This document shows positions 13,762-38,327 of a DNA stretch of 64,000 bases, piece after piece (the stretch's first letter is position 1; each line of letters starts with the position of its first letter). Source of the stretch: Pseudanabaena sp. PCC 6802 (GTDB taxonomy: Bacteria > Cyanobacteriota > Cyanobacteriia > Pseudanabaenales > Pseudanabaenaceae). The translations under genes were made by a program, and so were the position numbers. Below the pieces are notes generated by a model. It had not been told where the DNA came from, made no database searches, and saw only the letters and a program-made list of their open reading frames with translations. The stretch spans positions 1,799,368 through 1,863,367 of the forward strand of contig NZ_KB235914.1 of NCBI RefSeq assembly GCF_000332175.1, given 5' to 3'.

Positions 13762-13774
13762 CTACTTGCATCGC

Positions 13775-14899
13775 CTAGATTTCATCGGCGGCAAGATAAG
13801 ATAACCCCGTCGCCACAAAGCGATCGCGATCTACACCCGCCGGTAATTCCTGCTGTTGTAAAAATTCTCTCGCCTGCTCCAATAGACTGCCTTGTCGCTT
13901 TTCTGTCTCATTGCCATCGCTTTCTCTCGTATTCGCTTCTGGCGATCGCGCCTCGAATAGATAATGGGTCGCTCTGGTTTGCAAAGCACGAATCGTTTGA
14001 TAGTCCAATTGTCGCTGGATCGACTTTGGTAGATTAATTAGTCGTTGTCGTACGATTTTATCCGTGATGTCTACTTGTTGGGCGCGATCGCTAATCAATC
14101 GATCGATCTCTTCCGCTTCTTTCCCGTGTGCGTCGATTGCTGGTAGATCGATGGTCGGGCGAGGCGTAGTGAGGGCGTGGAAATTGGCTGCGTGAGTTTC
14201 TAAGTTGAATTCTACAAATCCCTTCGACTCGTTTGCCTCTTTCCAAATGTCGTTGCTGGTACGCTCGATCGCGCCCGCATAGTAGGCATTACGTCCGAGA
14301 TGAGTAAAGCTATGGTAATGTCCGCAGGCAACGTAATCCCAGGGCATCTCCATCAAATCTGCGGGGATATCGTAGCCGCCGTAGTCATTAATGCGATCGC
14401 TGTCCACCGTGCCGTGCAGCATCAGCAGGTTATAGGTGAAATCTGGATCGGGACGAATTTGCACTGGGTCAAATTGCTCTAAGGCGCTATGGGGCAGGCA
14501 AAATATCTTGGCATGGCGATCGTCAGTGGCTATTGCTTCTGGCTTTTGCGTGACTACGCTAACATCGGGGATCAGACTGAGTAATTCCAAAATGCAGCGG
14601 TTGTCGGAGGATTTAACTGATTCGTGATTACCAGCAATTACGACAATCTTAGCATCGCACTTTTGACGGAATTTGACTAATTCTCTCTGCGTTTGCACTA
14701 CGGCTAAATTGCCAGGACGGGGGACGTGGAAAACATCGCCAGCAATCAATACGATATCTGGTTGCAGGGATACAGTGCGTTCCAATGCTTCTCGAAACGC
14801 ATTAAAGACATCGGCTTCCCGCCGATTCACGCCCTGACTGGTCATGCGGCTGTAAGCACGATATCCCAAATGCAGATCGGCAAGATGAACCAGGCGCAT
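13775..14899 (-). CDS. SbcD/Mre11-type metallophosphoesterase (DNA repair exonuclease subunit)
   Basis: The 374-residue protein carries the metallophosphoesterase motifs in order: ADLHLG (Asp8, His10), AGDVFH (residues 53-58), AGNHES (about 89-94), MLHGTV and CGHYHSF. These bind the two metal ions of Mre11/SbcD nucleases, which process hairpins and double-strand ends. The C-terminal third is an Asp/Glu-rich helical region that may contact an SMC-type ATPase. No sbcC/rad50-like partner is present nearby, so the partner must be encoded elsewhere. It is followed on the same strand upstream by the xisH-xisI pair, 18 bp from the xisI stop. Confidence 0.85.
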   Translation of the reverse strand: MRLVHLADLHLGYRAYSRMTSQGVNRREADVFNAFREALERTVSLQPDIVLIAGDVFHVPRPGNLAVVQTQRELVKFRQKCDAKIVVIAGNHESVKSSDNRCILELLSLIPDVSVVTQKPEAIATDDRHAKIFCLPHSALEQFDPVQIRPDPDFTYNLLMLHGTVDSDRINDYGGYDIPADLMEMPWDYVACGHYHSFTHLGRNAYYAGAIERTSNDIWKEANESKGFVEFNLETHAANFHALTTPRPTIDLPAIDAHGKEAEEIDRLISDRAQQVDITDKIVRQRLINLPKSIQRQLDYQTIRALQTRATHYLFEARSPEANTRESDGNETEKRQGSLLEQAREFLQQQELPAGVDRDRFVATGLSYLAADEI

Positions 14900-23480: not shown

Positions 23481-24428
23481 ATGCTTACTACTCGCACTGT
23501 CCGCATCGGCTCCCGCAAAAGTCAACTCGCCCTGGTTCAAAGCCATTGGGTACAAGCGGAATTGCAGAAAGCGCATAGCGATCGCACATTTGAAGTAAAA
23601 ACCATGAGCACGCAGGGCGATAAAATCCTCGACGTGCCGCTAGCCAAAATTGGCGACAAGGGTTTATTTACCAAAGAGCTAGAAGTTGCCATGCTGGCAA
23701 ATGAAGTGGACTTTGCCGTACATAGTCTCAAGGATCTGCCCACCAATTTACCCGAAGGCTTAATGCTGGGTGCAGTGACAGAACGCGAGGATCCCGCCGA
23801 CGCTATGGTCGTGCATCCCAAGTATCAAGATCTGAAACTAGAAACCCTACCTGCGGGTGCAGTAGTTGGCACGTCGTCGTTACGCCGCCTCGCCCAGTTG
23901 CGCCATCACTACCCCCACCTCACGTTTAAAGATATTCGCGGCAATCTGAATACGCGCCTGCAAAAGCTGGATGAGGGCGAATACGATGCAATTATCCTCG
24001 CCGTAGCAGGTTTGCAGCGACTGGGGATGGGCGATCGCATCCATCAGATCATCGACCCAGATATATCCCTACACGCCGTCGGCCAGGGTGCCTTGGGGAT
24101 CGAATGCCGCGCCGATGACGCAGAAATTCTGGCATTGTTTGCACCGATTTCCCACTATCCCACCACGCAGCGTTGTTTGGCCGAACGCGCTTTCTTGCGA
24201 GAATTAGAGGGCGGATGTCAGGTGCCAATTGGCGTTAACACTGCGATTGAAGGCGATCGCCTGACGCTGAAAGGGATTGTGGCGACATTAGACGGTCAAA
24301 CCCTGGTGCGCGGCGAGGTACAGGGTAGCGTTACCCAATCCGAAGAAATCGGCACTGAATTAGCAAACCAGCTTAAAGGCAAAGGCGCTCAAGCCATCCT
24401 TGATGCGATCGTCGCCGAATTTCGCTGA
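23481..24428 (+). CDS. hemC: Hydroxymethylbilane synthase (porphobilinogen deaminase)
   Basis: HemC joins four porphobilinogens into the linear tetrapyrrole precursor of haem, chlorophyll and bilins. The 315-residue protein shows the family pattern: [14 protein letters not shown] near the N-terminus, the substrate-binding Asp region [17 protein letters not shown], Arg-rich [31 protein letters not shown], and the dipyrromethane cofactor cysteine in [10 protein letters not shown]. All catalytic residues are present. It is the last gene before a strand switch. Confidence 0.97.
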
Positions 24429-24525: not shown

Positions 24526-25947
24526 TTACGATAGACCTGTTTTAACTAGGGCGAGTAACTCCCGAGCGATCGCCGCAGCCTGCTGCCGAATTTCAGGCAC
24601 AGCTGTTGTTTCCCAGAGATTACCTTTGCACGGAGAACCCAGTGTAAATAAAACCTGTGATGCGGTTCCTTGAGTATCTAAGATCGCACCATTGTCTGCA
24701 ACATCCAGACCGAGGTGTAAAAGATCGGGGCGAGACAACCCCGATCTAAATAGAGCGGCAATTAAAGGATGCTGAAACTTCCGATAGTCGCATTCTGGCC
24801 CCGTACAGTTGATGACTCGACCGACTCGAATAACCGTTGATTCGGCATAACTGCGCTTGCGAATCAAAACATCTACACCATCGGCATCTTCTCGAAAAGC
24901 TTGAATGCACCCCGCGCAAATAACGAGTCGATGGAGGTTTCGCATTGTCGCGATCGCTTCTGAGATCGCCGGAGCCATGCGATGTCGATGTACCTCCCAG
25001 TAAGGGCGAACGTGGCGAAGAAATCGTCGCTTTTCCTCGATTGGTAAAGCTTGCCAAATTTGTTGGGTAATTGGACGCAACGAATCAATTACTGCACGCC
25101 AGTCATGTCCTTGTGTAGCCGCCGCCTCAACTTCCCTGCGCACTCGTTTTAATAATGTCCGGGTATTTAGCGCAGCTAGATCGATATCTAGAAATGGAGG
25201 GTAAGGGAATGTTGCTTGATGGCGATTAGGGAGCAGCCCATGCCGAGATACAACATAAATCTTTCCCATGTGGCCTTTATCGTGGAGGGCGATCGCCCAA
25301 TCCAGCATAGTCAGTCCCGAACCAATTAGCAGTACGGGATCGTCGCGATCGATGTCATCAAACGCATCGCTAGCCCAGGCGTAGCTAATATAGCGTTTAC
25401 TGCTGTAGAACGACCGATCCGATATAGCAGGATCGCTAGGGGGAAAGTTGCCCAATGCCAAAATGACTTTATCTGTTCGTATCGTTTTTCCACTTTGCAA
25501 TTTCACGATCGCGCCCTCCAGGTGGGGCTGGATGGAGATTGCCTCATCTGCGATTCTTTGTAACGTTACATCCGTGCGAGCATGGGATTCTGCTCGAGCG
25601 AGAATTGCTTGCACGTATTCTCCAAACAGAAAGCGGGGGACATAGGCAGTTGCGTCCAGATTCTCTAACCTTGGCGATCGCTCTTGCAACCAGTATAAGA
25701 AGTGGTTGGGAAGATCGGGGAAAGCGCTCATTTTGCCGACAGGAACGTTCAATAGATGACAGGGGAAGGGAGTGCTATACGCAACCCCCAAACCGATCGG
25801 ATTCCTGCGTTCGATTAGTTTGATATCGAGAGGAGAATTAGCATGTTCGAGCAGGTGAACTGCCACGATCGCTCCACTGAAGCCGCCCCCAACTATAGCA
25901 ATTGTAGGGATGGAAGTTGCATTTGATATTTTGTGGATTTTATTCAT
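24526..25947 (-). CDS. FAD/NAD(P)-binding oxidoreductase-like protein
   Basis: The 473-residue protein begins with a dinucleotide-binding fold (TIAIVGGGFSGAIVAVHLLEH, residues 15-35) followed by IKLIERRNPIGLGVAYSTPFPCHLLNVPVGKMSAFPD, typical of the FAD-NAD(P)-binding (NAD_binding_9 / HpaO-like) family. A second glycine motif, LLIGSGLTMLDWAIAL, and the ATG-like motif VGRVINCTGPECDYR follow. The substrate is unknown. It is the last gene of a minus-strand run of flavin-linked sulfur-scavenging genes, although two MITE-like repeats (25951-26184) separate it from the next one, so co-transcription is uncertain. Confidence 0.75.
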   Translation of the reverse strand: MNKIHKISNATSIPTIAIVGGGFSGAIVAVHLLEHANSPLDIKLIERRNPIGLGVAYSTPFPCHLLNVPVGKMSAFPDLPNHFLYWLQERSPRLENLDATAYVPRFLFGEYVQAILARAESHARTDVTLQRIADEAISIQPHLEGAIVKLQSGKTIRTDKVILALGNFPPSDPAISDRSFYSSKRYISYAWASDAFDDIDRDDPVLLIGSGLTMLDWAIALHDKGHMGKIYVVSRHGLLPNRHQATFPYPPFLDIDLAALNTRTLLKRVRREVEAAATQGHDWRAVIDSLRPITQQIWQALPIEEKRRFLRHVRPYWEVHRHRMAPAISEAIATMRNLHRLVICAGCIQAFREDADGVDVLIRKRSYAESTVIRVGRVINCTGPECDYRKFQHPLIAALFRSGLSRPDLLHLGLDVADNGAILDTQGTASQVLFTLGSPCKGNLWETTAVPEIRQQAAAIARELLALVKTGLS

Positions 25948-25950
25948 GCA

Positions 25951-26065
25951 ATATAGCGTTTTTCAATTGAGAACAGGTTTTATTGACGAGGTGAAAGAGT
26001 GGAACCCCTTCTTGGGGGCAACGCCCCCAAACCCCCTTCTTGTTTTCATCTGAAAACCGCTATAT
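25951..26065. repeat. MITE-like repeat, family B, short form
   Basis: One end reads ATATAGCGTTTTTCAATTGA and the other, inverted, ATATAGCGGTTTTCAGATGA. The centre contains the hairpin CTTGGGGGCAACGCCCCCAA. It lies 3 bp upstream of the ATG of the FAD/NAD(P)-binding gene, so it occupies that gene's leader. It lacks the GC-rich core present in the long copies at 30259-30416 and 47313-47469. Confidence 0.8.
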
Positions 26066-26073
26066 CTCAATGT

Positions 26074-26184
26074 CATAGCGGTTTCACTTGAGAATGGGTT
26101 TTATGTTTGGGGTGAAGGGGTTTCACCCCTTCTTGGGGCGCAGCCCCCAACCTCCCTACTCTGTTCGATCTGAAAACCACCATA
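26074..26184. repeat. Second, diverged family B repeat in tandem
   Basis: It starts CATAGCGGTTTCACTTGAGA and ends TCTGAAAACCACCATAG, with the inner hairpin GGGGTTTCACCCC and TTGGGGCGCAGCCCCAA. It is separated by 8 bp from the copy at 25951-26065. Sequence divergence from the other copies suggests it is older. Confidence 0.65.
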
Positions 26185-26197
26185 GAACGCCTCGAAT

Positions 26198-27409
26198 TTA
26201 CGAATAAAAGCTAGGATCTGGGTACTTCCCATTCAGCGCCCAATCGCCGATCGCCCGAACCTTATAGGCCACCGGATCGTGTAGCGTGAAGGTGCGCAGG
26301 TTCCGCCAGTAGCGATCGAAGCCGTACTGGCCAGCAGTCGCTCTCGCTCCCATTGCTTCAAAAATGCGACTGGTAATCTCTAAGCCTACTTTCGTCGCTG
26401 CAACTTTAGCCGTGGCGATCGCCACCGCACATTCCCCTCTCTGTTCTGCTGGCATCGACGATCCCAATTCCCAGGTAGCTTGCAGCAGTTCTCCCGCTTT
26501 GTCCGTCAGGCAAGTGGCTGCTTGCAGGTCAACCCACATATCGCCGTAATGCTGGAGGATGTAGGGATCGTCTGCAGCACTTTCTACCCCAGAGTTGAGC
26601 CAGGGTCTGGTGAAGGCGCGCGTATATTCTCTCGCCGCATCGTACGCTCCTGCGGCAATACCAAGGTAGATGTTGGTAAAGTTTAGCTGCGTCAAACAAG
26701 CACGAAAGGTTTTGAAGGGTTCGTTCGCGCTACTTCTACCGCCAAATATCTCTTCTGGGAAAATCCGCACGCGATCGAAGCTGACGCTACCGCTGTCCGT
26801 TTGCCGCTGTCCCATATTATCCCAATCATCGTGGATGGTAATCCCCTCTCGCTGGCTGGGAATGGCAAGGGCGATTAATTCGGAAGTCTCGGGATAGACC
26901 GCCGTAACTGGCATCATATCCGAATCTTTAGAGCCAGAACAAAAGCTTTTCTTGCCGTGCAAGCGAAAGTTCTCTCCGTCAGGCACGAGAATTGTTCTGC
27001 GATCGAGCGGGTTGAGGGCATTACACCAGAACCAATTTCGCTTGACAGTTTCTACATAAAATCTCTCCTTTTGTGCGGGGGAACCAAAGATATGAGGTAT
27101 GGTTAACCCCAAATGATGGTAGGAATATACGTGAGCAATAGAAGCATCAACCTTTGCGAATTCGCGTGCAATTTTCATTGCTAGAATCCAAGACTCCCCA
27201 ATCCCTCCATACTGTTTGGGAATTATTAAGTGTAGCAACCCGCTGTCTCGAATGCGATCGCGTTCGTATTTTGGCGTTCCTCCTGCTTTATCCCGCTCTA
27301 CCGCTGTCGTCGCAAACTCCTGCGCTAAAGAAATTGCTACTGCCAGATAATCCTTGGAGGTACTGAGTTCTTCCACTTGCTTCTCGATAGTTTTTTCATA
27401 TATAGCCAT
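26198..27409 (-). CDS. Acyl-CoA-dehydrogenase-fold flavin monooxygenase (SfnB/DszC-like)
   Basis: The protein has the acyl-CoA dehydrogenase fold: N-terminal helices with LHLIIPKQYGGIGESW, the middle flavin domain with LHGKKSFCSGSKDSD and WDNMGQRQTDSGSVSFDRV, and a C-terminal helical part ending RNLRTFTLHDPVAYKVRAIGDWALNG. These features match the SfnB/DszC group, which are FMN- or FAD-linked enzymes acting with reduced flavin on sulfur compounds. The ATG at 27409 is preferred over the in-frame upstream codon at 27451, which lies deep in a MITE-like repeat. Even so, this ATG and the first residues (MAIY) derive from the repeat end. No Shine-Dalgarno is visible. Confidence 0.8.
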   Translation of the reverse strand: MAIYEKTIEKQVEELSTSKDYLAVAISLAQEFATTAVERDKAGGTPKYERDRIRDSGLLHLIIPKQYGGIGESWILAMKIAREFAKVDASIAHVYSYHHLGLTIPHIFGSPAQKERFYVETVKRNWFWCNALNPLDRRTILVPDGENFRLHGKKSFCSGSKDSDMMPVTAVYPETSELIALAIPSQREGITIHDDWDNMGQRQTDSGSVSFDRVRIFPEEIFGGRSSANEPFKTFRACLTQLNFTNIYLGIAAGAYDAAREYTRAFTRPWLNSGVESAADDPYILQHYGDMWVDLQAATCLTDKAGELLQATWELGSSMPAEQRGECAVAIATAKVAATKVGLEITSRIFEAMGARATAGQYGFDRYWRNLRTFTLHDPVAYKVRAIGDWALNGKYPDPSFYS

Positions 27410-27548
27410 AGACAGATCTGTTAGGAGGGGTTGTGGGGGCTGCGCCCCCACGCAGGGGAGGCAGGGCGGTCTTGGGGGTTCCCCGCTAGAGCCACTGCCG
27501 TGTGAAACCCCTGCACCCCGTCCTAAGCCTATTGACTATAGCTATAGT
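27400..27548. repeat. MITE-like repeat, family A, long form, overlapping a start codon
   Basis: The ends are TATAGCCATAGACAGATCTG (27401-27420) and, inverted, CTATAGCTATAGTCAATAGG. The interior carries a GC-rich core with GGCAGTGGCTCTAGCGGGG on the minus strand and the hairpin GGGGGCTGCGCCCCC. It overlaps the first codons of the acyl-CoA-dehydrogenase-like gene. Family A copies without the core are at 12125 and 60867. Confidence 0.85.
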
Positions 27549-27600
27549 TTTCTCATATATAGCATTACACTGTTTTGTGGTAATCGTTAGATTCTCAGTC

Positions 27601-27650
27601 TGCGCAGGCGGACTTCGTTTGTGTAGCCTTTGTTTCAACTGCCAGGCAAC
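27601..27650. repeat. Family C interspersed repeat, copy 1
   Basis: TGCGCAGGCGGACTTCGTTT followed by GTGTAGCC...CAACTGCCAGGCAA. Related copies are at 42473-42526 and 60091-60143. All three lie directly after, or overlap, the 3' end of a minus-strand gene. Here it sits 6 bp beyond the ribBA stop. Confidence 0.7.
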
Positions 27651-27655
27651 TCGCG

Positions 27656-28981
27656 TTAGGTAAGCGATGGTAGAAGGTGCCCCAGTTTCTCTTGCTTGGT
27701 TGCCAAGTAGCGGGCGCTATAGTTGTTCGCTCGCACCAACAATGGGATGCGTTCGACGATGTTCAAATCCCAACCGCTCAGACCTACAACTTTGAGAGGA
27801 TTGTTAGTCAGCAAGCGGATATCTCGCACTCCCAAGTCCTTAAGAATTTGCGCTCCCACGCCATAGGTTCGCAAATCTGCCTTGAAGCCGAGTTGCTCGT
27901 TCGCCGCAACCGTATCCAAACCATTGTCCTGTAGCGAATAGGCTTTGATTTTGTTGACCAATCCAATCCCGCGACCTTCCTGTCGCAGGTAGACGACAAC
28001 TCCCTGTCCCTCTGCTTCGATCGCCTTGAGAGCAGTATGCAATTGTTGGCGACAGTCACAGCGCAGCGAACCAATTGCATCTCCTGTAAAGCATTCGGAA
28101 TGAATCCGCACTAGCGTCGGCTGTAGGGAAAAACGAGCTGGATCGCCCTTAACGATCGCTGTTGCTTCCGAGCCATCCAGGTCATTGCGATAGCCATAGA
28201 TTTGGAAATTCCCGAATTCGGTAGGTAAATTAGCGATCGCTTCTCTGCGCACAAAGCGATCGGATCTCAAACGATAGCGAATTAAATCTGCAATGCTGAT
28301 AATTTTGAAGTCGTGCGTTCGGGCATAGGCAAATAATTCCGGCAAGCGCGACATCGACCCATCTCTATTTTGGATCTCGCAAATAACACCAGCGGGATAC
28401 AATCCCGCTAGCTTTGCCAGGTCAACTGCTGCCTCAGTATGTCCGGCTCGTTTTAAGACTCCTCCTGCCTGCGCGCGTAGCGGAAAGATGTGTCCCGGCC
28501 TTCTCAGATCGCTGGGGCGAGTGTTGGGGTCGATCGCGACCTGAATTGTGCGAGCGCGATCCATCGCCGAGATGCCAGTGCTAACTCCCAGATGGGCAGC
28601 AGCATCAATGCTGACAGTGAAAGCAGTTTGATGGCTTTCTGTATTGGTTTGCACCATGAGCGGTAACTGGAGCCGATCGAGGCGATCGCCCGTCATGGCC
28701 AGACAAATCAGCCCGCGCGCGTGAACTGACATAAAGTTGATCGTGCTGGGAGTAGCAAACTCAGCCGCGCAGATCAGGTCACCCTCGTTCTCGCGATCTT
28801 CATCATCCACTACCACTACAGGTCGTCCATCTTTTATGTCTTCAATAGCACTAGAGATGGAATCAAATGAGTGAGAACTCACTACTGCATCAGTTTGTGA
28901 TAAATCTGACGAGAGCGAGCAAGCGACTGATGCGGGTGACTCGGTCAAAATGGTTTGCTTGGGCATACTGGATAGAGGCAT
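27656..28981 (-). CDS. ribBA: Bifunctional riboflavin biosynthesis protein RibBA
   Basis: The N-terminal half is 3,4-dihydroxy-2-butanone 4-phosphate synthase (VVVVDDEDRENEGDLICAAE; HARGLICLAMTGDRLDRL; RRPGHIFPLRAQAGGVLKRAGHTEAAVDL). The C-terminal half is GTP cyclohydrolase II with zinc cysteines in HSECFTGDAIGSLRCDCRQQL and the catalytic YLRQEGRGIGLVNKIKAY. Together they supply both precursors of riboflavin. I start it at the ATG at 28981 because the longer reading would overlap the upstream sfnB-like gene by about 100 bp. It sits 13 bp after that gene's stop, inside a run of flavin-dependent sulfur genes, so it probably raises FMN supply for them. A housekeeping copy may exist elsewhere. 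Confidence 0.93.
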   Translation of the reverse strand: MPLSSMPKQTILTESPASVACSLSSDLSQTDAVVSSHSFDSISSAIEDIKDGRPVVVVDDEDRENEGDLICAAEFATPSTINFMSVHARGLICLAMTGDRLDRLQLPLMVQTNTESHQTAFTVSIDAAAHLGVSTGISAMDRARTIQVAIDPNTRPSDLRRPGHIFPLRAQAGGVLKRAGHTEAAVDLAKLAGLYPAGVICEIQNRDGSMSRLPELFAYARTHDFKIISIADLIRYRLRSDRFVRREAIANLPTEFGNFQIYGYRNDLDGSEATAIVKGDPARFSLQPTLVRIHSECFTGDAIGSLRCDCRQQLHTALKAIEAEGQGVVVYLRQEGRGIGLVNKIKAYSLQDNGLDTVAANEQLGFKADLRTYGVGAQILKDLGVRDIRLLTNNPLKVVGLSGWDLNIVERIPLLVRANNYSARYLATKQEKLGHLLPSLT

Positions 28982-28994
28982 ATAGATGTGGATA

Positions 28995-30209
28995 TTACAG
29001 CCACGGATGGCGGGGAGGATTGACCCCGTTGAGGAAGTAATTGCCAACGGCATAGTATTTCCAGCGCACGGGATCGTGTAGTGTATGTGCTCTGGCATTC
29101 CGCCAGTGACGGTCGTAGTTGAATTCTTGCAAGGTAGACTTGGTACCTGCTAGTTCGAACAGCTTGTTGGTTGCCAGTAGAGATGCTTCTGTTGCTAGAG
29201 CTTTGACTTCAGCAACGGCGATGGATGACTCGACCACCTTCGATTCCTCAAGCCCTGACTCATAGGCGAGATCGATGAACTCGCCAGCACGACGCAGGAG
29301 TTCTTCCGACGCATGAACTTGAATAATGACATTGCCCAGATTGTAGAGAGTCAGAGGGTCTTCATATCCCTTTTCTAAGTTGCTATCTACCCAGGGACGA
29401 GTGTGGTTTCTCACAAAATGAAGCGTATCGCGGAGAGCAGCTTTGGCAATACCTACATCCACCGCTGCCTGGATAATCTGTGCTACGGCTCCCATTGGCG
29501 TTGCGCGTTCAAATGCCAGATAGTGAGGGATGACATGCTCTGGCTTCACCTTGACATTTTCTAAAATGGTCGTACCGCTAGCTGTAGTCCTCTGTCCGAA
29601 GCTCGTCCAATCATCCAACAGGGTCAGCCCTTCGGCATCTCGTTCGACAAATGCCACGACTGTTTTGCCATCTTCGTCAGCGGCGATCGTGGGAATCCAG
29701 TGAGCCAAAAGCGCTCCAGCCGAATAGTATTTGCGCCCGTTGAGTACGAAGCTGTCGTCCGATCGCGTCAACCTGGTTTGCACGTCGGTTACGGATTTAG
29801 TCCCGATTTCGGAAAAGGCGTTGCCAAAGCGTTTGCCTTGTAACACCAGATCGAAGAAGAAGCGTTTCTGCTCTTCGGTGCCATCTAGCTTGATAGCTTC
29901 CACCATGTAGAGATGATTTTGCGGAATTTGTCCCAGACTAGAATCCGCTTCCGCAACGATCTTAATTACCTCTGCTAGCGTGGCATTCGAGACTCCCGCC
30001 CCGCCATATTGCTTGGGAACGATGATGCCCCACAGTCCGCTTTGTGAAAACCTCTTGACTTCTTCTACGGGCAATTTCCGATCGCGATCGCGATCGGAGT
30101 CACCTTTGCGAAATTCGGCTGCCAACTCTTTGGCAATGGCGATCGCCTCGCGATCGTCTCGAATGATGTGGGCTTTCGGTTCTGTTTCAATGTTGACTAG
30201 TGCTGTCAT
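28995..30209 (-). CDS. sfnB: SfnB-family sulfur acquisition oxidoreductase
   Basis: The protein has the acyl-CoA dehydrogenase fold with features of SfnB: GLWGIIVPKQYGGAGVSNATLAEV, FSEIGTKSVTDVQTRL, LNGRKYYSAGALLAHWIP, WTSFGQRTTASGTTIL and the C-terminal RNARAHTLHDPVRWKYYAVGNYFLNG. SfnB is linked to dimethylsulfone utilisation together with SfnG. The ATG at 30209 has a Shine-Dalgarno (AGGA) and removes a non-conserved 15-residue extension. It lies between the sfnG-like gene and ribBA on the same strand, though a 158-bp family B repeat separates it from sfnG. Confidence 0.85.
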   Translation of the reverse strand: MTALVNIETEPKAHIIRDDREAIAIAKELAAEFRKGDSDRDRDRKLPVEEVKRFSQSGLWGIIVPKQYGGAGVSNATLAEVIKIVAEADSSLGQIPQNHLYMVEAIKLDGTEEQKRFFFDLVLQGKRFGNAFSEIGTKSVTDVQTRLTRSDDSFVLNGRKYYSAGALLAHWIPTIAADEDGKTVVAFVERDAEGLTLLDDWTSFGQRTTASGTTILENVKVKPEHVIPHYLAFERATPMGAVAQIIQAAVDVGIAKAALRDTLHFVRNHTRPWVDSNLEKGYEDPLTLYNLGNVIIQVHASEELLRRAGEFIDLAYESGLEESKVVESSIAVAEVKALATEASLLATNKLFELAGTKSTLQEFNYDRHWRNARAHTLHDPVRWKYYAVGNYFLNGVNPPRHPWL

Positions 30210-30258
30210 AGATATTTTTCCTAGTGATGTATGTATGTTGTGTGCATTCTGCAAGTGG

Positions 30259-30416
30259 TATAGCGGTTTTCATCTGAAAACGAGAAGGGGGTTTGGGGGC
30301 GTTGCCCCCAAGAAGGCGAGGCAGGGCGGTCTTGGGGGTTCCCCGCTAGAGCCACTGCCGTGGGGAACCCCTTCACCCCGTCAATAAAACCTGTTCTCAA
30401 TTGAAAAACGCTATAT
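30259..30416. repeat. MITE-like repeat, family B, long form, between sfnG and sfnB
   Basis: The ends TATAGCGGTTTTCATCTGAA and, inverted, ATATAGCGTTTTTCAATTGA match the other family B copies. The interior holds the same GC-rich core (CCCCGCTAGAGCCACTGCCG) as the long family A copies. It lies 50 bp upstream of the sfnB start and 20 bp downstream of the sfnG stop, so a read-through transcript would contain a strong hairpin. Confidence 0.85.
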
Positions 30417-30435
30417 TTCACTTCCAAGCCAATCC

Positions 30436-31536
30436 TTAAGCTACTCCAACCAATTCTGGGGTCGCTTGACGGTGAGATTTAAGCTCGCGAACGAGGGGAA
30501 TTACCTCCCGTCCAAAGGCTGGCAGATCGTCCGTGTAGTGTAAAAAGCCGCCGAGAATTAGATCGACACCAACGCTATGAAACTGTTGAATCTTTTCAGC
30601 CACCTGCTCCTTGGTTCCAATCAAACCAGAACGGAATCCATCGTTGTACTGAACTAAATCTTCAAAATTGGAATTTGCCCACATCCCAGTTTTCTCGAAG
30701 GTAGATGCGCCAGCTTGCTTTACAGCTTCTCCAAAGCCTTCTACAGCTTCGGTATCGGCACGAGCAATAATCTCGCGCAGTACCTCGTGGGCTTCCTTTT
30801 CAGTATCGCGCACGAGGATAAAAGAGTTCAAACCAAACTTAATCGTGCGTCCTGCCGCATGCGCTAGAGCCGAAACTTCTTCAATCTGCTCCCGTACGCC
30901 TTCGATAGTGTTGCCGTTCATAAAGTACCAGTCAGATACCCGACCTGCCATCTGGCGTGCGGCTTTTGAGTTGCCGCCTTGGAAAATCTCTGGATGGGGG
31001 TTCTGGTTGATAGGTCTGGGTTTGACCCAACCTCCATTAATGCGGTAGAAGTCGCCTTTGAAATGGAAGTCATTTTCCGTCCACAAACCCCTGAGAATGC
31101 GAATGAACTCTTCAGAGCGACGATAGCGCTCGTCGTGCTCTAACCAGGGTTCGCCGTAAATGGTGAATTCTCCTTTGAACCAACCACTGACGATGTTCAA
31201 AGCAAAACGTCCCTTGGAAATGTTGTCGATAGTTGCCCCTAGCTTAGCGACGACACCAGGATGCCACAGTCCGGGGTGAACCGCCGCAATCAATTTGATG
31301 CGTTCGGTGACTGGAGCCAGCGCCGCAACTGTTGCTAGAGCCTCAAGCTGATACTCTGCTCCATAACTGGCAATAAAGCGAGCCTGTGCCAGCGCGTATT
31401 CAAACCCTACTTGTTCTGCGATTTGCGCTAACCAGGTGTTATAGTCGTAGGTCCAGTCCGTATTTTGGGCGATTTTACTAATGACTAAACCGCCGCTGAC
31501 GTTAGGAACCCAATACGCGAACTTGATATCAACCAT
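30436..31536 (-). CDS. sfnG: SfnG-like FMNH2-dependent dimethylsulfone monooxygenase
   Basis: The 366-residue protein is a luciferase-like flavin monooxygenase: KFAYWVPNVSGGLVISKI at the N-terminus, AAVHPGLWHPGVVAKLGATID, SKGRFALNIVSGWFKGEF and GGNSKAARQMAGRVSDWYFMNG. The closest named type is SfnG, which converts dimethylsulfone to methanesulfinate using reduced FMN. The ATG at 31536 has a strong Shine-Dalgarno (AGGAG, 5-base spacing), while the longer reading starts in non-conserved sequence. Reduced flavin probably comes from SsuE, encoded beyond the IS element. A regulatory motif shared with the ssuD promoter region lies 191 bp upstream. Confidence 0.88.
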   Translation of the reverse strand: MVDIKFAYWVPNVSGGLVISKIAQNTDWTYDYNTWLAQIAEQVGFEYALAQARFIASYGAEYQLEALATVAALAPVTERIKLIAAVHPGLWHPGVVAKLGATIDNISKGRFALNIVSGWFKGEFTIYGEPWLEHDERYRRSEEFIRILRGLWTENDFHFKGDFYRINGGWVKPRPINQNPHPEIFQGGNSKAARQMAGRVSDWYFMNGNTIEGVREQIEEVSALAHAAGRTIKFGLNSFILVRDTEKEAHEVLREIIARADTEAVEGFGEAVKQAGASTFEKTGMWANSNFEDLVQYNDGFRSGLIGTKEQVAEKIQQFHSVGVDLILGGFLHYTDDLPAFGREVIPLVRELKSHRQATPELVGVA

Positions 31537-32003
31537 TTTTACTCCTACATACTTGCAGTTTGTTTTCGAGTTGTTTAGGTGTGTTGTTCGGAAAAGCTTA
31601 TAGAGCTTAAGAAAAAATGCTGAAGCCGATCTCCTGAATCGAGGGGTGAACCCCTGCACCCCGTCCTAACACGACTTCGTAGTGCTATGAAAATGCTAGA
31701 GATATCGTAGATTGCAATTTAACAATCTACGATATATTGATAGAGATACTGTAGATTTGATGCTAGATTGTAACCTATCACGATTATTTCTGGAGGGCAA
31801 GTTATATTCACTACATTTCCGACTAATTCTGGGCACAGCGATCTGGCACAAGAGGTGGCAATCCCATTTGCATCGTAAAGGTAAGGTGGTTTATGTTACT
31901 TGAGTTTTTATGACTGCATCAATGAGGAAAGCAGCCAGATGCATCTGTCTCATCTCATAGCTACCTCACGCAATCTCCGCGAGCGATCGCTCGTCAATAG
32001 AAA
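31537..32003. promoter_or_regulatory. sfnG upstream region with palindrome and shared motif
   Basis: ATCGTAGATTG (31705-31715) and CAATCTACGAT (31723-31733) form a perfect 11-bp inverted repeat. Overlapping it, the 33-bp stretch 31727-31759 beginning CTACGATATATTGAT resembles two sites upstream of ssuD (35550-35582 and 35641-35673). A remnant of a family A repeat (GGGGTGAACCCCTGCACCCC) lies at about 31642-31662. This looks like the control region of a sulfur-responsive promoter; the regulator is unknown. Confidence 0.55.
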
Positions 32004-33487
32004 CTGGAGTTTAGACTAAAAGGCAACAAGAAGCATCTCGCTAGATAGAAACTAGCGAGAGAGAGGATAAAAGGGAAGAAGTTGAGCTAAGCAGTTGCAG
32101 CGGAAGCTTTTTTGAGGGGCTTGGCATAGCGTTTTTTGACAGTAGGATAACGAATCCGTTGGGTTCGTTTTTTCCCAAGAGGCCAACCTGGAGACTTACC
32201 GCGAGGTTTAGGGTCAGGGGAAGGAGAGCCAATCCTGACCAAAACTAAAGCAAAAGCATTTGCAACTCGACCAGGAGACAATTTAGTCATCGGTTTCTGC
32301 CAAGGCAGAGGAGAGTCTTGGACAAGTTCACGAGCGAGCCACAATTGCCAAGTAAGTAAAGGCATCAAGTCCGACCAAGTCTCCATCTGAGCAGGGGTAG
32401 AAAGCTGAGGGATTGTCCAATGGAGACGTTGACGCACCAAGCGATACCAATGCTCAATGGCAAATCTGCGCAGATATTTTTGCCATACCTCACTCAAGAT
32501 TGGCTCGTCTTTAGCGACCCAAATCAACCACAGGGGTTTCGATTCAGGCATATCAAGACGTTCGACCAGAATGAGTGTAAAGGGATGGTCTGCGGCTTGC
32601 TTTAAGTGCAGGTTTGGCCATCGACGAATTTGCAATCGTCCCAGTTTAGGCTCTGCAATTGTGATGTCTGCTTGGGGAATAGACCAAGTGTCAGAGTCTT
32701 TGAGGCTAAATTTCTCTCCATGCTTATGGGGTCGCCCATGCCCCTCGTAATCCTTTGGGGCATGATACAGAACCCGGTTGGGGCGTAGCCTGAGCAGCTT
32801 GATACACGGGATGTCTGCTGTTTGCTGCAAAAATGGTGCGCACCCATACTCGCCATCCCCCAGGAAAAGCACAGTCCCAGGAATTTCCGCACAAACCAAG
32901 CGTAACTGACTAGCGGCTTTCTGAATCGGGTTCTCGAAACTGGTGATCCGCTCATGCCGCAACGGTAAGGCAAAACTCCCTTCTGACTCTGGAATCCAGG
33001 CAATTGTGCTGTATCCTTGCCCCACCGTAACAGGTTTGCTTCCTACTCCCGGTTGAGGTTGATGTTCGTAGGTGCGTTCTTGTAATGTCACCGCATAGGG
33101 ACGCGACCAGGCTGTATGGCCCCCCGCCAATATCGTCACCTCTGCTGCCGGCATTTGCTGTATGTATTGCTTCATCAAGTCTTCACGTGGAGGATGACTA
33201 TCTTGCAGTGCTTCATAGATACTCGACCACTCCCTCCGAAATAATGGGCTTAACGAAAGTTCCACAAACGATGAAACACTCCGACTCGTCAGTACCGCAT
33301 CCATCAAGTCGAACAGCGCATCTCTCCCGTTCCCTATAATTTCGTACGTGTACTTGCGAAATTGCTCAAGTTTATCCAAACTAATCATGATGAAGCTGTT
33401 GATTTTATAGTCTTTTCAGCTTCCATCATCAAGCGGTCAGTCTGCAATGGCTGGCTGCTTTTTACCACTTTTTAGTCTAAACTCCAG
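32004..33487 (-). mobile_element. IS701/IS4-like insertion sequence, 1484 bp, with 6-bp target duplication
   Basis: Both ends carry the 18-bp inverted repeat CTGGAGTTTAGACTAAAA (32004-32021 and 33470-33487 inverted). The flanking sequence TAGAAA is repeated at 31998-32003 and 33488-33493. One full-length transposase gene occupies the interior. The element sits between ssuE and the sfnG upstream region, splitting what may once have been a single sulfur gene run. Perfect ends and an intact ORF point to recent insertion. Confidence 0.9.
32087..33388 (-). CDS. DDE transposase (IS701/IS4-like)
   Basis: The 433-residue protein has a DDE fold layout: an Asp in FLGDGEYGCAPFLQQ, downstream basic strands KLLRLRPNRVLYHAP, and the region RFAIEHWYRLVRQRLHWTIPQLS containing the likely catalytic Glu followed by family-typical helices. 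The C-terminus is very basic (KKRTQRIRYPTVKKRYAKPLKKA). Codons are intact throughout and there is no frameshift. The precise IS family was not confirmed by search. Confidence 0.85.
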   Translation of the reverse strand: MISLDKLEQFRKYTYEIIGNGRDALFDLMDAVLTSRSVSSFVELSLSPLFRREWSSIYEALQDSHPPREDLMKQYIQQMPAAEVTILAGGHTAWSRPYAVTLQERTYEHQPQPGVGSKPVTVGQGYSTIAWIPESEGSFALPLRHERITSFENPIQKAASQLRLVCAEIPGTVLFLGDGEYGCAPFLQQTADIPCIKLLRLRPNRVLYHAPKDYEGHGRPHKHGEKFSLKDSDTWSIPQADITIAEPKLGRLQIRRWPNLHLKQAADHPFTLILVERLDMPESKPLWLIWVAKDEPILSEVWQKYLRRFAIEHWYRLVRQRLHWTIPQLSTPAQMETWSDLMPLLTWQLWLARELVQDSPLPWQKPMTKLSPGRVANAFALVLVRIGSPSPDPKPRGKSPGWPLGKKRTQRIRYPTVKKRYAKPLKKASAATA

Positions 33488-33534
33488 TAGAAAGATCCAG
33501 GACATTCAGTAATTTCTCTTTCCAATGTTGGAAG

Positions 33535-34143
33535 CTAAGATCGTTGTGCTGGCGCGGTCTGGGTAAATCGAGAACTAACTCCTGATGAATGCGTCGAGGA
33601 TCTTTGCGGAGAGAGACTAACTGCTAGCAGCAGATCGTCGATCGCCTGTTTGAGTCTTTGCTCGATTTCCTCCTCAAGTTGAACGCTAGTATTGTTATCG
33701 TTCCATGCAATCTGCTTGTCTACGGCGTAGACACCACCCAGGATATGCCTCGCCCCCAGTTCGGATAGTAAGGGTTTCAGGGTGAAATCAATAGAGAGTA
33801 AGTGGGCAATGGTACCACCAGTGGCAATGGGAAGAATTACTTTGTCTGATAGAGCTTGCTGCGGAAGCAAATCTAAAAATGCTTTTAGCACGCCAGTATA
33901 CGCTGCTTTATAGATGGGAGTGGCAACGATCGCGCCATCAGCTTCTGCCAGTAGAGCCTTTGGTTCTTCCAAAGATGGGCTGTTATAGCGTCCAAATACT
34001 AGATCCTCAGGAGGTAGGTTGCGCACAGCGATGAGATTCGTCTTTACTCCTTGTTGTAACAAAAGCGCGTTCGCGTACTCCAATAAGCCGTGCGTTTTAG
34101 AAGGGTGAGATGGACTGCCACTGATTAAGAGAATACTTGTCAT
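33535..34143 (-). CDS. ssuE: NADPH-dependent FMN reductase SsuE
   Basis: The 202-residue flavodoxin-like protein starts ILLISGSPSHPSKTHGLLEYA, binds FMN phosphate there, and has the conserved IVATPIYKAAYTGVLKAFLDLLPQQALSDKVILPIATGGT. SsuE/MsuE reductases supply reduced FMN to the monooxygenase SsuD. The start has a Shine-Dalgarno (AGGAGA) and lies 51 bp after the ssuD stop on the same strand, forming an operon. The last 25 residues are a Ser/Thr-rich tail not typical of the family. An IS element lies 48 bp downstream. Confidence 0.93.
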   Translation of the reverse strand: MTSILLISGSPSHPSKTHGLLEYANALLLQQGVKTNLIAVRNLPPEDLVFGRYNSPSLEEPKALLAEADGAIVATPIYKAAYTGVLKAFLDLLPQQALSDKVILPIATGGTIAHLLSIDFTLKPLLSELGARHILGGVYAVDKQIAWNDNNTSVQLEEEIEQRLKQAIDDLLLAVSLSPQRSSTHSSGVSSRFTQTAPAQRS

Positions 34144-34194
34144 ATATAATGTCTCCTTTGATGAATTGGAAAATGTACGCGCGTTTTAGCTTTG

Positions 34195-35358
34195 TCAATC
34201 TACTGTTGTAGCCTCTTTCTCCCTGGCTTGCTGTTTGGGAAAGGCATCGTTGGCGACAATCTCTCCGAAGGGACTCAGCACGTGTTGCTTTTCTGCTACT
34301 GGCAGATTTTCTAATGGCAATCGAGGGAACAGTAATTCTGCTACGCGATATGCCTCCTCTAAATGGGGATAACCAGAGAGGATAAAGGTTTCGATCCCTA
34401 AATCGACATACTCTAGCATTCGAGCTGCAACTGTCTCTGGATCGCCTACTAGAGCAGTTCCCGCTCCTCCGCGCACCAGTCCAATACCTGCCCACAGATT
34501 TGGACTAATTTCCAGCGCTTCTCGACTGCCATTGTGCAATTGAGTCATGCGACGCTGTCCTTCCGAATCCATGCGGGCGTATGCTTTTTGCGCTGTAGCG
34601 ATCGCCTCTTCATCCACATAGCGAATCAGGCGGTTAGCGGCATCCCAGGCTTCGCTCTCAGTTTCTCGCACGATAACGTGCAGCCGAATGCCAAAGCGCA
34701 AGGTACGTCCTTCTCGCTCTGCCAGTTGCCGCACTGCCTCGATCTTTTCTGCTACTTGAGCGGGAGGTTCGCCCCAGGTCAAATAGACATCGACATGTTT
34801 GGCAGCAATGCGCTGAGCAATAGGAGAAGAACCGCCAAACCAGAGTGGTGGATGGGGAGTTTGCACGGGATGGAAAAGCAACTTTCCTCCCTTAATCTGG
34901 AAGTATTTGCCCGCCAAGTGAGATTCCTTGCCAGCAGAGATTTCCCGCCAAACAGTTAAGAATTCATCAGTTAACTCATAGCGATCGTCGTGGGATAAAT
35001 GTAACCCATCACCCTCCAGTTCCACAGGATCGCCACCTGTTACGACGTTAATTAACAGTCTTCCTTTTGACATGCGATCGAAGGTGGCAGCCATACGAGC
35101 CGCTGTTCCTGGTGACATCAGACCAGGTCGAATTGCCACTAGAAATTTCATCCGTTGGGTAATCGATGCCAGGGTCGCAGCGACGATCCAGGCATCTTCG
35201 CAAGAGCGCCCAGTTGGTAATAATGCCCCCGTGTAGCCCAGGCGATCGACGGCTTGCGCAATCTGACTTAAGTAGCCGTGTTCTGTTGCGCGCCCGCCGA
35301 TCGCCGTACCTAAATAGCGTCCGTCTCCATGAGTGGGAATGAACCATAACAATTCCAT
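34195..35358 (-). CDS. ssuD: Alkanesulfonate monooxygenase SsuD
   Basis: The 387-residue luciferase-like monooxygenase matches Ssu[75 protein letters not shown] and [25 protein letters not shown]. It releases sulfite from alkanesulfonates with reduced FMN from SsuE. The Shine-Dalgarno (AAGGAT) is well placed. No ssuABC transporter genes are present in the window. Upstream lie a tandem repeat, a short Cys-ending ORF and two copies of the motif also found before sfnG. Confidence 0.95.
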
Positions 35359-35549: not shown

Positions 35550-35673
35550 CTACGATAAATTGATCGGAATATAGTGGTTTGTTGCAAGCCATAGTATGGC
35601 ACAAGCGATCGCCAAAGATCAAGATGCAAGCAGCCTGAATCTACGATATGTATGTCGGGATGCTGTATATTCG
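35550..35673. promoter_or_regulatory. Two copies of a motif shared with the sfnG upstream region
   Basis: CTACGATAAATTGATCGGAA starts at 35550 and CTACGATATGTATGTCGGGA at 35641. Both resemble the sfnG upstream site beginning CTACGATATATTGATAGAGA at 31727; the third also shares the later CTGTA block. The first lies 192 bp upstream of ssuD, matching the 191 bp seen for sfnG, in the same relative orientation. They are probably activator sites. Confidence 0.55.
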
Positions 35674-35748
35674 GGTATTAGTAAAAAATCTCAAAGGGCG
35701 ATCGCCCTCTGCTAAATTTATGAAGGCTTATTTTTGGCTTTGGGTGGT

Positions 35749-37047
35749 ATGGAATTAGCAGAGCTAGATTTAACGCATCATCCGGTACTACTGAAACAAG
35801 TACGCATTATCGATGCCACAGAATCCGATCTCTCCGATCGCTTCGCCGACGTTTTAATTTCGACCGATGATGTCATGCATGTTGGGGTTCAGGATGCCGA
35901 TCTCCCAGCCGACGCACGCATACTAGATCGATCTGGTCTAGTTTTGGGGACTGGTCTGGTGGATTTGTACAGCACCAGTGGCGAACCGGGGTTTGAACGC
36001 CGCGAAACGATCGCTTCTTTAACTAAAGCCGCTCAGTGTGGTGGTTTTAGTAGGGTGGGAATTTTACCGCATACTAAACCCGCGATCGATAATCTGACTG
36101 CCTTAGAATTTTGGAGCAGGCACGATCGCGCGCGATCGCCACATCATCCCCAACTAATGCCCTGGGGGGCAATTACCCTGGATTGTGCCGGGAACCAACT
36201 TACAGACCTGGCTGAGATGGCAGAGGCGGTAATTGGATTTACAGATGCCAAACCGCTCCCAAATCTCATGCTTGTCCGCCGCGCTATGGAATACATTAAG
36301 CCCCTTGGCAAACCGCTGATGCTATGGGCATACGATCCCAATTTGGCGGGCAGTGGCGTAATGAGAGAGGGGAAGCGATCGCTGCAATATGGTCTGACGG
36401 GTAGCAGCGCCACGGCGGAAACGGCGGCACTGGCGGCGTTGATTGAGTTAGTCGCACTGATTGGCACGCCCACCCACTTCATGCGAATTTCTACAGCCCG
36501 CAGCGTGGAATTAATTGCCCAGGCCAAGTCGCAAGGGTTACCCATTACCGCTAGTGTTGCCTGGATGCACCTGTGGCTTACAGATAAAGACTTACATACC
36601 TACGATCCCAGCCTGCATCTGAAGCCACCATTGGGCAGCGACACCGATCGCGATGCTCTGATCGCCGCCGTCAAGTCAGGCATCATCGATGCGATCGCCG
36701 TTGACCATGCCCCCTACACCTACGAAGAAAAGACCGTCGCCTTTGAGGTATCGCCGACGGGAGCGATCGGTCTGGAGTTTGCCTTGCCCGTGCTTTGGCA
36801 AGAATTGGTGGAAACTGGTTTGCTGAGCGGGCTGGAGCTATGGCGATCGCTCAGCTCCGGAGCGGCACGATGTCTTGGGATAGATACTAAAGAAGAAAGC
36901 TTACCTCTAGCTACGCTATTTGACCCCAGTTTAAGCTGGACGGTGACATCTGAGGCGATCGCCTCACTAGCTCAAAATACACCCTGTCTCGGCAAGTCTA
37001 TCGTCGGGAAAGTCATTCCCATTGCTAATCTATCAAGTTCTGCTTAG
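35749..37047 (+). CDS. Dihydroorotase homologue lacking metal ligands
   Basis: The protein aligns along its length with class I dihydroorotases (LGTGLVDLYSTSGEPGFERRETIASLTKAAQCGGFSRVGILPHTKP..., cut; MREGKRSLQYGLTG; AVDHAPYTYEEK). The metal-binding positions have changed: the usual DxHxH is DLYST, the usual cHVST is MRIST and TPHHL is VAWMHL. Only the DHAP aspartate survives. It is therefore probably not an active metal-dependent hydrolase, and may be a structural partner, as inactive dihydroorotase homologues are for aspartate carbamoyltransferase in other bacteria. I prefer the ATG at 35749 to the TTG at 35734. It overlaps the next, convergent gene by 23 bp. Confidence 0.8.
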   Translation: MELAELDLTHHPVLLKQVRIIDATESDLSDRFADVLISTDDVMHVGVQDADLPADARILDRSGLVLGTGLVDLYSTSGEPGFERRETIASLTKAAQCGGFSRVGILPHTKPAIDNLTALEFWSRHDRARSPHHPQLMPWGAITLDCAGNQLTDLAEMAEAVIGFTDAKPLPNLMLVRRAMEYIKPLGKPLMLWAYDPNLAGSGVMREGKRSLQYGLTGSSATAETAALAALIELVALIGTPTHFMRISTARSVELIAQAKSQGLPITASVAWMHLWLTDKDLHTYDPSLHLKPPLGSDTDRDALIAAVKSGIIDAIAVDHAPYTYEEKTVAFEVSPTGAIGLEFALPVLWQELVETGLLSGLELWRSLSSGAARCLGIDTKEESLPLATLFDPSLSWTVTSEAIASLAQNTPCLGKSIVGKVIPIANLSSSA

Positions 37048-37520: not shown

Positions 37521-38327
37521 TTACATAATCAAAATGTTAGCGCTGCTTAACAAAGGAATGCTAAACCCTGTAGATAGCGTTGCTATTTGCATTTGGGGAG
37601 CCAAACCAGTACCATCTATATCTGAGAATAGGGCACCTGTACGGGTATCGTAAATGAAGCGATCGTCAGCATCAAGTGCTGTCGTACCGAGGACAAACTG
37701 ATTTTCCAGCAACCCCCTAATAGATCCGGGCACGCCACCTTGTCCTAAACCGAAAGCTTGACCGAGCACGAGGATACTATCTTCGGTAACAGAGAAGTCG
37801 GTAATGTTGTCAACTCCTACAATTGGACTATCGAAATAAAAGCTATCGGAACCGAAACCGCCAGTCAGCGTGTCGTTCCCAATTCCACCAACTAGCCTGT
37901 CGTTGTCTCCCCCACCCCAAAGCATATCATTACCCCCTCTACCTTCGAGCGTGTCGCGACCCAGTCCACCGTCAAGGGTATCGTCGCTAATGAGATCGCT
38001 GTCGAAGAGAAAGTCATTGCCTGTACCACCATCAAGGATGTCACTGCCCGCTTGACCGTCGAGAGTATCGTTACCAACCCCTCCTCTAAGGGTATCGTTG
38101 CCATCGCCGCCCTGCAAACCATCATTGCCGGATAAGCCGACGAGGGAGTCATTCCCAGCTAAACCCAGAATAGTGTCGTCTCGCAAGTCGTTGCCAATGA
38201 GGGTGTCGTCGTTATTAGTACCAACAATTTGTGTTACAGGTGGAGGTGGTTCGTCTATGACAATTATAGGAGGGCGTAGAGGAGGAATTAGTCTGCCACC
38301 TAAGTTATTAAGCTCGAAAGTTTCCAT
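37521..38327 (-). CDS. RTX-type calcium-binding repeat protein
   Basis: The 268-residue protein has a Pro-rich N-terminal stretch ([18 protein letters not shown]). About ten nonapeptide repeats of the GGxGNDTLxG type follow ([51 protein letters not shown]). These bind calcium in a parallel beta roll after export. The C-terminal 80 residues ([16 protein letters not shown]...) resemble the secretion-signal region of type I secreted proteins. No transporter genes are nearby. The Shine-Dalgarno (AGGAAAAAA) is good. Confidence 0.85.

Follow-up and report, generated by a model that had tools for sequence, protein, structure and literature searches.

An organosulfur island of Pseudanabaena sp. PCC 6802 carries a second, shorter RibBA that is likely to supply flavin for sulfur release

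The window analyzed here is a 64,000-nucleotide stretch of the cyanobacterium Pseudanabaena sp. PCC 6802 (NZ_KB235914.1, positions 1,799,368 to 1,863,367), which at 24526-35358 carries an organosulfur island on the minus strand, including a gene for the riboflavin enzyme RibBA. Genes were called using curated NCBIfam cut-offs plus Pfam domains, and scores against solved structures, which also establish the folds, were used for closest relatives. Read from 35358 to 24526, the order is SsuD, SsuE, an insertion sequence (IS), SfnG, SfnB, RibBA, an MsuC-like protein and an FAD/NAD(P)-binding protein:

34195..35358, minus strand: SsuD, alkanesulfonate (or methanesulfonate) monooxygenase dependent on reduced flavin mononucleotide (FMNH2) (TIGR03565, 617.5 bits, cut-off 518.2)
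33535..34143, minus strand: SsuE (TIGR03567, 237 bits, cut-off 164.05)
32003..33488, minus strand: IS with transposase at 32087-33388 (NF041680, 551.7 bits, cut-off 440)
30436..31539, minus strand: SfnG, FMNH2-dependent dimethylsulfone (DMSO2) monooxygenase (TIGR04021, 625 bits, cut-off 382.95)
28995..30206, minus strand: SfnB, an oxidoreductase for sulfur acquisition belonging to the group D (acyl-CoA-dehydrogenase-like) monooxygenases (TIGR04022, 637.2 bits, cut-off 430.9)
27656..28966, minus strand: RibBA, island paralogue, 3,4-dihydroxy-2-butanone 4-phosphate synthase plus GTP cyclohydrolase II (NF006806, 790.8 bits, cut-off 764)
26198..27412, minus strand: predicted MsuC-like methanesulfinate monooxygenase (best solved relative 6u76, 441 bits)
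24526..25947, minus strand: FAD/NAD(P)-binding protein, a recurrent neighbour (PF13454, 141.5 bits)

An earlier reading made from the sequence alone had listed these genes, apart from the transposase, on one strand, with ribBA between two oxidoreductase genes; open reading frames (ORFs) and NCBIfam and Pfam matches agree with it, and the observation is confirmed. The island RibBA also exceeds the cut-off of NF006803 (609.7 versus 569 bits), and its PF00926 and PF00925 domains are both full length. The adopted start lies 28 nt past the SfnB stop and gives a protein of 436 aa, the mechanical ORF starting earlier, at 29098, within SfnB. Two GTP cyclohydrolase II genes are present in the genome, that of the island and one at C5:3818960. 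The latter, found where the sequence-only reading had proposed searching for a second ribBA, encodes a longer protein (570 aa by ORF) whose C-terminal extension is missing from the island copy, and the two proteins are 71% identical over 399 residues. Since a long RibBA is present elsewhere in the genome, the island copy is a paralogue. Its sequence is well kept: among 100 columns invariant across 15 cyanobacterial non-island and 8 plasmid-borne RibBA (n=23), the window protein retains 97, and the island copies of Leptolyngbya, Elainella and Microcystis described below retain 99, 97 and 94.

SsuD and SfnG are both members of the Pfam family Bac_luciferase, to which luciferase itself also belongs. 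The best solved relative of SfnG is the FMNH2-dependent DMSO2 monooxygenase 8t0u (472 bits). SsuD matches the structures of MsuD (7jv3, 534 bits) and SsuD (1m41, 532 bits) almost equally, so that an alkanesulfonate and a methanesulfonate substrate are indistinguishable. Where two SfnB/DszC-type oxidoreductases had been proposed, only the gene at 28995-30206 is SfnB; the product of 26198-27412 lies below the cut-offs of both the SfnB model (TIGR04022, 303.4 versus 430.9 bits) and the DszC model (NF043015, 388.7 versus 850 bits), and scores at most 361 bits against DszC structures, compared to 441 bits with 6u76. No curated MsuC model surfaced among the NCBIfam matches of the window proteins. 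Because 6u76 outscores the DszC entries and the SfnB and DszC cut-offs are unmet, we call the predicted product an MsuC-like methanesulfinate monooxygenase.

To place the island among cyanobacteria, 386 cyanobacterial genomes were searched by RibA domain and by SfnB over cut-off. SfnB exceeded the cut-off in six, namely the window genome (G000), G237, G376, G167, G125 and G382, which for SfnB bears out the earlier statement that the gene set is unusual in cyanobacteria. A RibA-domain match was found in 373 genomes, and two matches in five (G000, G127, G129, G167 and G237), RibA-domain duplicates, rather than RibB-only ones, being what this survey covered. Full-length RibBA is duplicated in two genomes (G000 and G237), in both cases inside an SfnB island, that is in two of the six SfnB genomes versus none of the 380 others (Fisher p = 2e-4, indicative only, as the genomes are related). 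The second ribA genes of G127, G129 and G167 were rejected as full RibBA duplicates, since no RibB domain was found and they do not lie at an SfnB locus. That of G167 (G167:C3:6078756; L060, L121) encodes a RibA domain extended at its C terminus by a long stretch resembling, by eye, a RibD reductase, and the SfnB island of G167 lacks ribBA despite this second ribA. Those of G127 and G129 (G127:C9:22155 and G129:C6:1400421; L171, L172) are short stand-alone RibA-like genes with open frames of 217 and 213 aa, and an OprB-type porin lies about 4 kb from one of them.

Four cyanobacterial RibBA islands are known from these searches, and each holds some of SfnG, SfnB, SsuE and the MsuC-like gene. 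In G237 (L033) we observed SfnG, a sodium:solute symporter, SfnB, a 348-aa protein, SsuE, RibBA (37 nt past SsuE by ORF ends), an OprB-type porin and an MsuC-like gene, and a Microcystis novacekii metagenome-assembled genome (MAG; L066) is arranged in the same way. Leptolyngbya sp. FACHB-8 (L065) carries SfnG, SfnB, an isochorismatase-family protein, a homologue of the 348-aa protein and RibBA. Elainella saxicola (L169) carries SfnG, a symporter, a 135-aa protein, SsuE, RibBA and an NtaA/DmoA-family monooxygenase, on a different contig from its SfnB locus (L113). As to gene order in other genomes, which the sequence-only reading had suggested comparing, rib with sulfur partners recurs, and the neighbours differ among the four islands. 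The 348-aa protein is encoded after SfnB in various cyanobacterial islands (L033:10595-11641, L036:10770-11819 and others), has no Pfam or NCBIfam match and looks by eye like a membrane protein. After the Leptolyngbya island lie MetQ/MetN/MetI-type ATP-binding cassette (ABC) transporter genes (L065:15278-18084), of which MetI alone exceeds a curated cut-off.

In a RibBA-core tree of 29 rows (six sequences from islands, 15 cyanobacterial ones from outside islands and eight from plasmids), the four cyanobacterial island RibBA form one clade with 100/100 support, separate from the other cyanobacterial copies. A second tree was built from 45 RibB domains, 17 from islands and 28 from elsewhere, leaving out Elainella and the islands with RibA only. 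Here the 14 proteobacterial island RibB all form a single clade with 100/100 support, while the 12 remaining RibB from genomes of this kind fall outside it; one of the 12 (a third copy, in Methylophilus sp. 42) may not be a housekeeping gene. The cyanobacterial islands stand beside other cyanobacterial copies in this tree, for which the program warns of long branches meeting. Taken together, the trees suggest that the cyanobacterial and proteobacterial recruitments of rib genes are separate events.

Relatives of the window SfnB were also sought in a collection spanning 84,980 species, yielding 57 loci that by title are 37 cyanobacterial, one Gracilibacteria and 19 others. RibA and/or RibB is encoded in 16 of the 57 (2/37, 0/1 and 14/19, respectively); ten of the loci are shorter than 15 kb, so that some rib absences may be due to truncation. 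For each of four housekeeping control genes (hemC, pyrC, tsaD and hflX) the count was 0/57 in these SfnB loci, 0/27 in Burkholderiales loci and 0/15 in cyanobacterial loci below the cut-off, compared to 16/57, 7/27 and 0/15 for rib genes. The 15 cyanobacterial control loci are only below-cut-off SfnB relatives, mostly MsuC-like, and the 57- and 27-locus sets overlap (both include L093, L094 and L107, and L124 shares a contig with L103). The locus on the contig titled Candidatus Gracilibacteria (L089) has an SfnB 77% identical to that of the window and an SfnG split across two frames, and is perhaps a misbinned cyanobacterial contig.

Rib genes stand among equivalent sulfur genes in Beta-, Gamma- and, on one plasmid, Alphaproteobacteria. 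Methylophilus sp. Leaf416 (L093) encodes SsuD, an MsuC-like protein, an amidohydrolase and RibB on one strand, spaced by 9, 21 and 13 nt when mechanical ORF ends are used, and on the other an MsuC-like protein, a sigma-54 activator and RibA with overlapping ends. A Methylococcaceae MAG (L095) has a full RibBA after an MsuC-type gene (product 50% identical to that of the window) and a sigma-54 activator. The Burkholderiales genome G508 (L141) encodes SsuD, an MsuC-like protein (4-nt overlap), RibBA (37 nt further on) and cysteine synthase A (CysK), followed by a MetN-type ATPase (12990-14003). On a Paracoccus plasmid we observed an NAD(P)H-dependent oxidoreductase, a luciferase-like monooxygenase (LLM), SsuD, RibB and an FAD/NAD(P)-binding protein, with a 4-nt overlap between the genes of RibB and the binding protein. 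The window FAD/NAD(P)-binding protein is 31.5% identical to this plasmid protein, has homologues of about 50% identity in the SfnB loci L082, L084 and L106 (there on the strand opposite SfnB), and is represented by a fragment in the Leptolyngbya locus.

Among 250 genomes of the Methylophilus order (the Burkholderiales sample, whose centre genome was picked for having the trait), SfnB exceeded the cut-off in 15, with RibA or RibB nearby in five. MsuC-type proteins (E up to 1e-90) were likewise found in 15 genomes, with a rib gene in seven (G390, G391, G400, G475, G508, G594 and G607); about 10 kb on each side of the gene was covered, the G410 stretch being only 6.3 kb. In a wider class sample around Methylophilus, SfnB was found in 1/321 genomes, the centre genome only. 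RibB-domain counts in the 19 genomes searched via their loci were two or three in 12 and one in seven, the single-RibB genomes including two Methylobacillus (G391 and G396) whose loci carry RibA only.

Reduced flavin is a diffusible co-substrate for SfnG, MsuC and SsuD, and is assumed to be so for SfnB; induction of the sulfur monooxygenases would thus raise the demand for FMN. In the island, SsuE would make FMNH2, SfnG would convert DMSO2 to methanesulfinate, the MsuC-like enzyme would convert methanesulfinate to methanesulfonate, and SsuD would release sulfite and formaldehyde from methanesulfonate, so that, judged from the gene identities, the island could encode the whole DMSO2-to-sulfite route. 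The substrate of SfnB is probably a related sulfide, sulfoxide or sulfone. The island RibBA would provide a second enzyme for both reactions by which GTP and ribulose 5-phosphate enter riboflavin synthesis, and if produced along with SfnB it would expand the pool of flavin at the time when the monooxygenases are made. We therefore consider it likely that the island RibBA serves specifically to supply FMN for FMNH2-dependent sulfur release, in an accessory C1-organosulfur module. The observed gene identities, the paralogy, the short gap to SfnB, the conserved residues, the island clade and the recurrence in other lineages carry this reading. From these we infer co-transcription, control by sulfur, enzyme activity and a benefit of the island RibBA, the 28-nt gap being suggestive only as a sign of co-transcription. 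The coupling of riboflavin synthesis to sulfur release that the sequence-only reading had put forward is supported, as a paralogue is involved, three further cyanobacteria have the same RibBA clade beside such partners, and rib genes stand among equivalent proteobacterial sulfur genes. With somewhat less assurance, a little better than even, we also propose that rib paralogues (RibB, RibA or RibBA) have been attached repeatedly, at least twice independently, to two-component FMNH2-monooxygenase sets, of which organosulfur scavenging is a major case, the rib gene travelling with the sulfur genes and forming clades of its own, distinct from the remaining copies in these genomes, with FMN supply as part of the sulfur-starvation response.

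Several observations weigh against a dedicated flavin supply. Within the stretches examined, ribBA is present in just 2/37 cyanobacterial SfnB loci; only one ribA match was found in three of the six surveyed genomes with SfnB over cut-off; and in the Burkholderiales sample 10/15 SfnB genomes and 8/15 MsuC-type genomes lack a rib gene in the stretch fetched. The first two of these counts make the pairing optional, and it is optional yet recurrent. The two proteobacterial full-length island RibBA are not grouped in the 29-row tree, where that of the Methylococcaceae joins three actinobacterial plasmid RibBA (96/85) and that of G508 lies at an ill-supported base (81/60); because this tree splits them, the single proteobacterial island clade of the RibB tree depends on sampling. 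The Microcystis island RibBA is the most altered copy, with six of the 100 invariant columns changed. Since the island lacks ribD, ribE and ribH, a later riboflavin step could limit flux. SsuD and SsuE are now split by the IS from the remaining island genes. No operator common to the islands was found, and an FMN riboswitch stayed below the gathering score in the window, in seven island loci and in another 15 sources (two island loci, 12 rib regions outside islands and the region of the genome's own other ribBA), tRNA being the sole family found; this negative says little, since non-island rib copies have no match either and there was no positive control.

That a duplicated ribBA merely landed in the island, with no functional tie to sulfur release, would account for the 35 of 37 cyanobacterial SfnB loci without ribBA in the stretch examined and for the varying surroundings of the four cyanobacterial islands. 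Yet one RibBA clade occurs with such partners in four cyanobacteria, rib genes lie in 14/19 non-cyanobacterial SfnB loci versus 0/57 for the four control genes, and they are operon-tight in some Proteobacteria, which leaves a chance neighbour very improbable. A different use of flavin is also improbable, if slightly less so: flavin might be secreted, free reduced flavin might oxidize methanesulfinate non-enzymatically, or one RibBA domain might have changed function. PMC13352529 indicates that FMNH2-mediated methanesulfinate oxidation is possible without MsuC, and one histidine invariant in the 23 comparison RibBA is substituted in all four cyanobacterial island copies; on the other hand, the window RibBA keeps nearly all of the invariant columns, and no flavin exporter was recognized in the island by the NCBIfam and Pfam scan.

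Scope, rather than mechanism, distinguishes the remaining alternative, in which an extra RibBA accompanies many two-component flavin monooxygenases, sulfur release being one case among them; it is compatible with a dedicated supply in the island, and we regard its chances as even. At nine of 14 plasmid rib loci, an LLM, a flavin reductase or an FMN-reductase-like oxidoreductase is encoded no more than two genes away, one of the nine being the Paracoccus sulfonate cluster, and the lux-rib operon discussed below shows the same pattern. The 14 loci were nevertheless hand-picked and non-random (5/40 and 9/40 rows from two listings; 394 matching records), and five of them have no such neighbour.

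The IS that separates SsuE from SfnG looks like a recent insertion rather than a part of the system, and it interrupts the gene row of the sequence-only reading. The element is 1,486 bp long, with 33-nt terminal inverted repeats that are 82% complementary (32003-32035 and 33456-33488). At least 30 further near-full-length, near-identical copies are present in the genome, a lower bound from 40 of 64 candidates scored. Both flanks carry AGAA, consistent with a 4-bp target duplication.

The borders of the island are formed by two genes on the plus strand:

23481..24428, plus strand: hemC, left border (TIGR00212, 372.1 bits, cut-off 164)
35734..37047, plus strand: pyrC (dihydroorotase), right border (NF005614, 549.3 bits, cut-off 456)

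Relatives that keep ribBA at this site without the sulfur genes, a finding that would speak against coupling, were looked for in an empty-site search. pyrC was present in 28/30 family genomes, ten of the 28 regions were fetched, and nine of the ten have no hemC in the stretch. The sole informative region, from G975 (another genus, 74% complete, 3.5-kb contig), has hemC adjoining pyrC with neither ribBA nor sulfur genes between them, which is thin evidence and does not count against coupling; the island was gained in the lineage of the window or lost in that of G975. The G975 gap contains a 184-aa ORF on the other strand, read by eye as a Uma2-type nuclease. A foreign composition was not supported, as the G+C values (0.48-0.52 for island genes, 0.53-0.54 for hemC and pyrC, 0.48 for the window) give no sign of recent transfer. 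Beyond pyrC, at 37521-38327, lies a 268-aa protein with RTX calcium-binding nonapeptide repeats (PF00353), far under the cut-off of any named RTX family.

One candidate regulatory element was noted upstream of SfnG:

31702..31735, no strand assigned: perfect 13-bp inverted repeat, a weak candidate operator

Its half-site also occurs at 35639-35647, upstream of SsuD, and far off at 3517. As a shared operator it was rejected, since the half-site is found in only 1/36 other SfnG upstream stretches (Elainella), and matches to the 13-mer with up to three mismatches across the window are not above chance (20 versus 17.1 expected). A 672-aa protein at L033:17725-19743, whose sole recognized domain is an N-terminal LysR-type helix-turn-helix, has homologues in many Nostoc islands and is perhaps a local regulator; several of these Nostoc islands have a palindrome like ATTCCATTTTGGAAT upstream of SfnG. 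A counterpart in the window's own genome was rejected, with three weak matches to the N-terminal part only (best E 1.2e-7).

As the sequence-only reading had noted, the island has no transporter according to the NCBIfam and Pfam scan. DMSO2 and other small neutral compounds may need none. Elsewhere in the genome, one SsuA-family protein exceeds the cut-off (244.5 versus 163.5 bits) and six fall below; because its neighbours include, besides DUF1989 proteins, a urea carboxylase (TIGR02712, 1889.7 versus 1303.85 bits), this match was not counted as evidence of sulfonate uptake, although it may still have that role.

If our reading is correct, the genes of organosulfur assimilation provide for co-substrate supply as well as for the reductase and the oxygenase, which extends the logic of lux-rib to the sulfur cycle. 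An extra RibB, RibA or RibBA would then be a marker for finding FMNH2-dependent pathways, a means to relieve flavin limits in biodesulfurization would be suggested, and some cyanobacteria, including a Microcystis, would be predicted to use methylated sulfur compounds. No description of rib genes with organosulfur genes was found in the open-access literature (most subscription journals lay outside its scope), and the available parts of PMC8399692, PMC4418817, PMC8557817, PMC2864759, PMC13344012 and PMC13352529 do not describe the pairing. For sulfur, the earlier statement that the arrangement is little described fits this open-access literature, but rib genes beside the FMNH2 system of lux in Photobacterium are well described. 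PMC8399692 lists ribA and ribBA in Methylophilus but links riboflavin to electron transfer, and PMC10049116 ties riboflavin synthesis to FMNH2. In an Acinetobacter cysteine-biosynthesis mutant, FMN and riboflavin were lowered and sfnG and sfnB-family genes upregulated (PMC13344012), which would be compatible with a flavin shortage under sulfur starvation.

The enzymes of the island have their counterparts in the Pseudomonas ssu/msu/sfn system, where, according to PMC13352529, SfnG converts DMSO2 to methanesulfinate, MsuC forms methanesulfonate and SsuD/MsuD releases sulfite and formaldehyde, a reductase supplying the FMNH2; the SfnG, MsuC, SsuD/MsuD and SsuE/MsuE functions, from DMSO2 to sulfite, are common to both. 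The two differ in that the main text of PMC13352529 contains no occurrence of "riboflavin", and in that the window island is without ABC transporter genes. The dimethyl sulfide (DMS) pathway of Acinetobacter baylyi ADP1, comprising Dms1-3, MsuC, MsuD, SsuD and one MsuE (PMC13352529, in part), is alike in that group D and luciferase-type monooxygenases are fed by one reductase, and the window SfnB and MsuC-like protein are of the same group D kind; in contrast to the island, no flavin-synthesis gene is mentioned in those parts of the paper.

The closest parallel to the placement of ribBA is the lux system of Photobacterium, in which rib E-B-H-A lies directly downstream of luxG and is co-transcribed with lux, as cited in PMC6409340, which gives Vibrio campbellii with ribB only. 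Both there and in the island, rib genes accompany a flavin reductase and an FMNH2-dependent monooxygenase of the luciferase type, here on the same strand, with SsuE now separated by the IS. The output is light in one case and sulfur release in the other, the island holds only the RibA and RibB functions, fused as RibBA, and co-transcription is reported for lux-rib, whereas in the island it is predicted. By analogy, the arrangement in the island would work like lux-rib, with riboflavin synthesis placed beside the FMNH2-dependent monooxygenases that draw on it.

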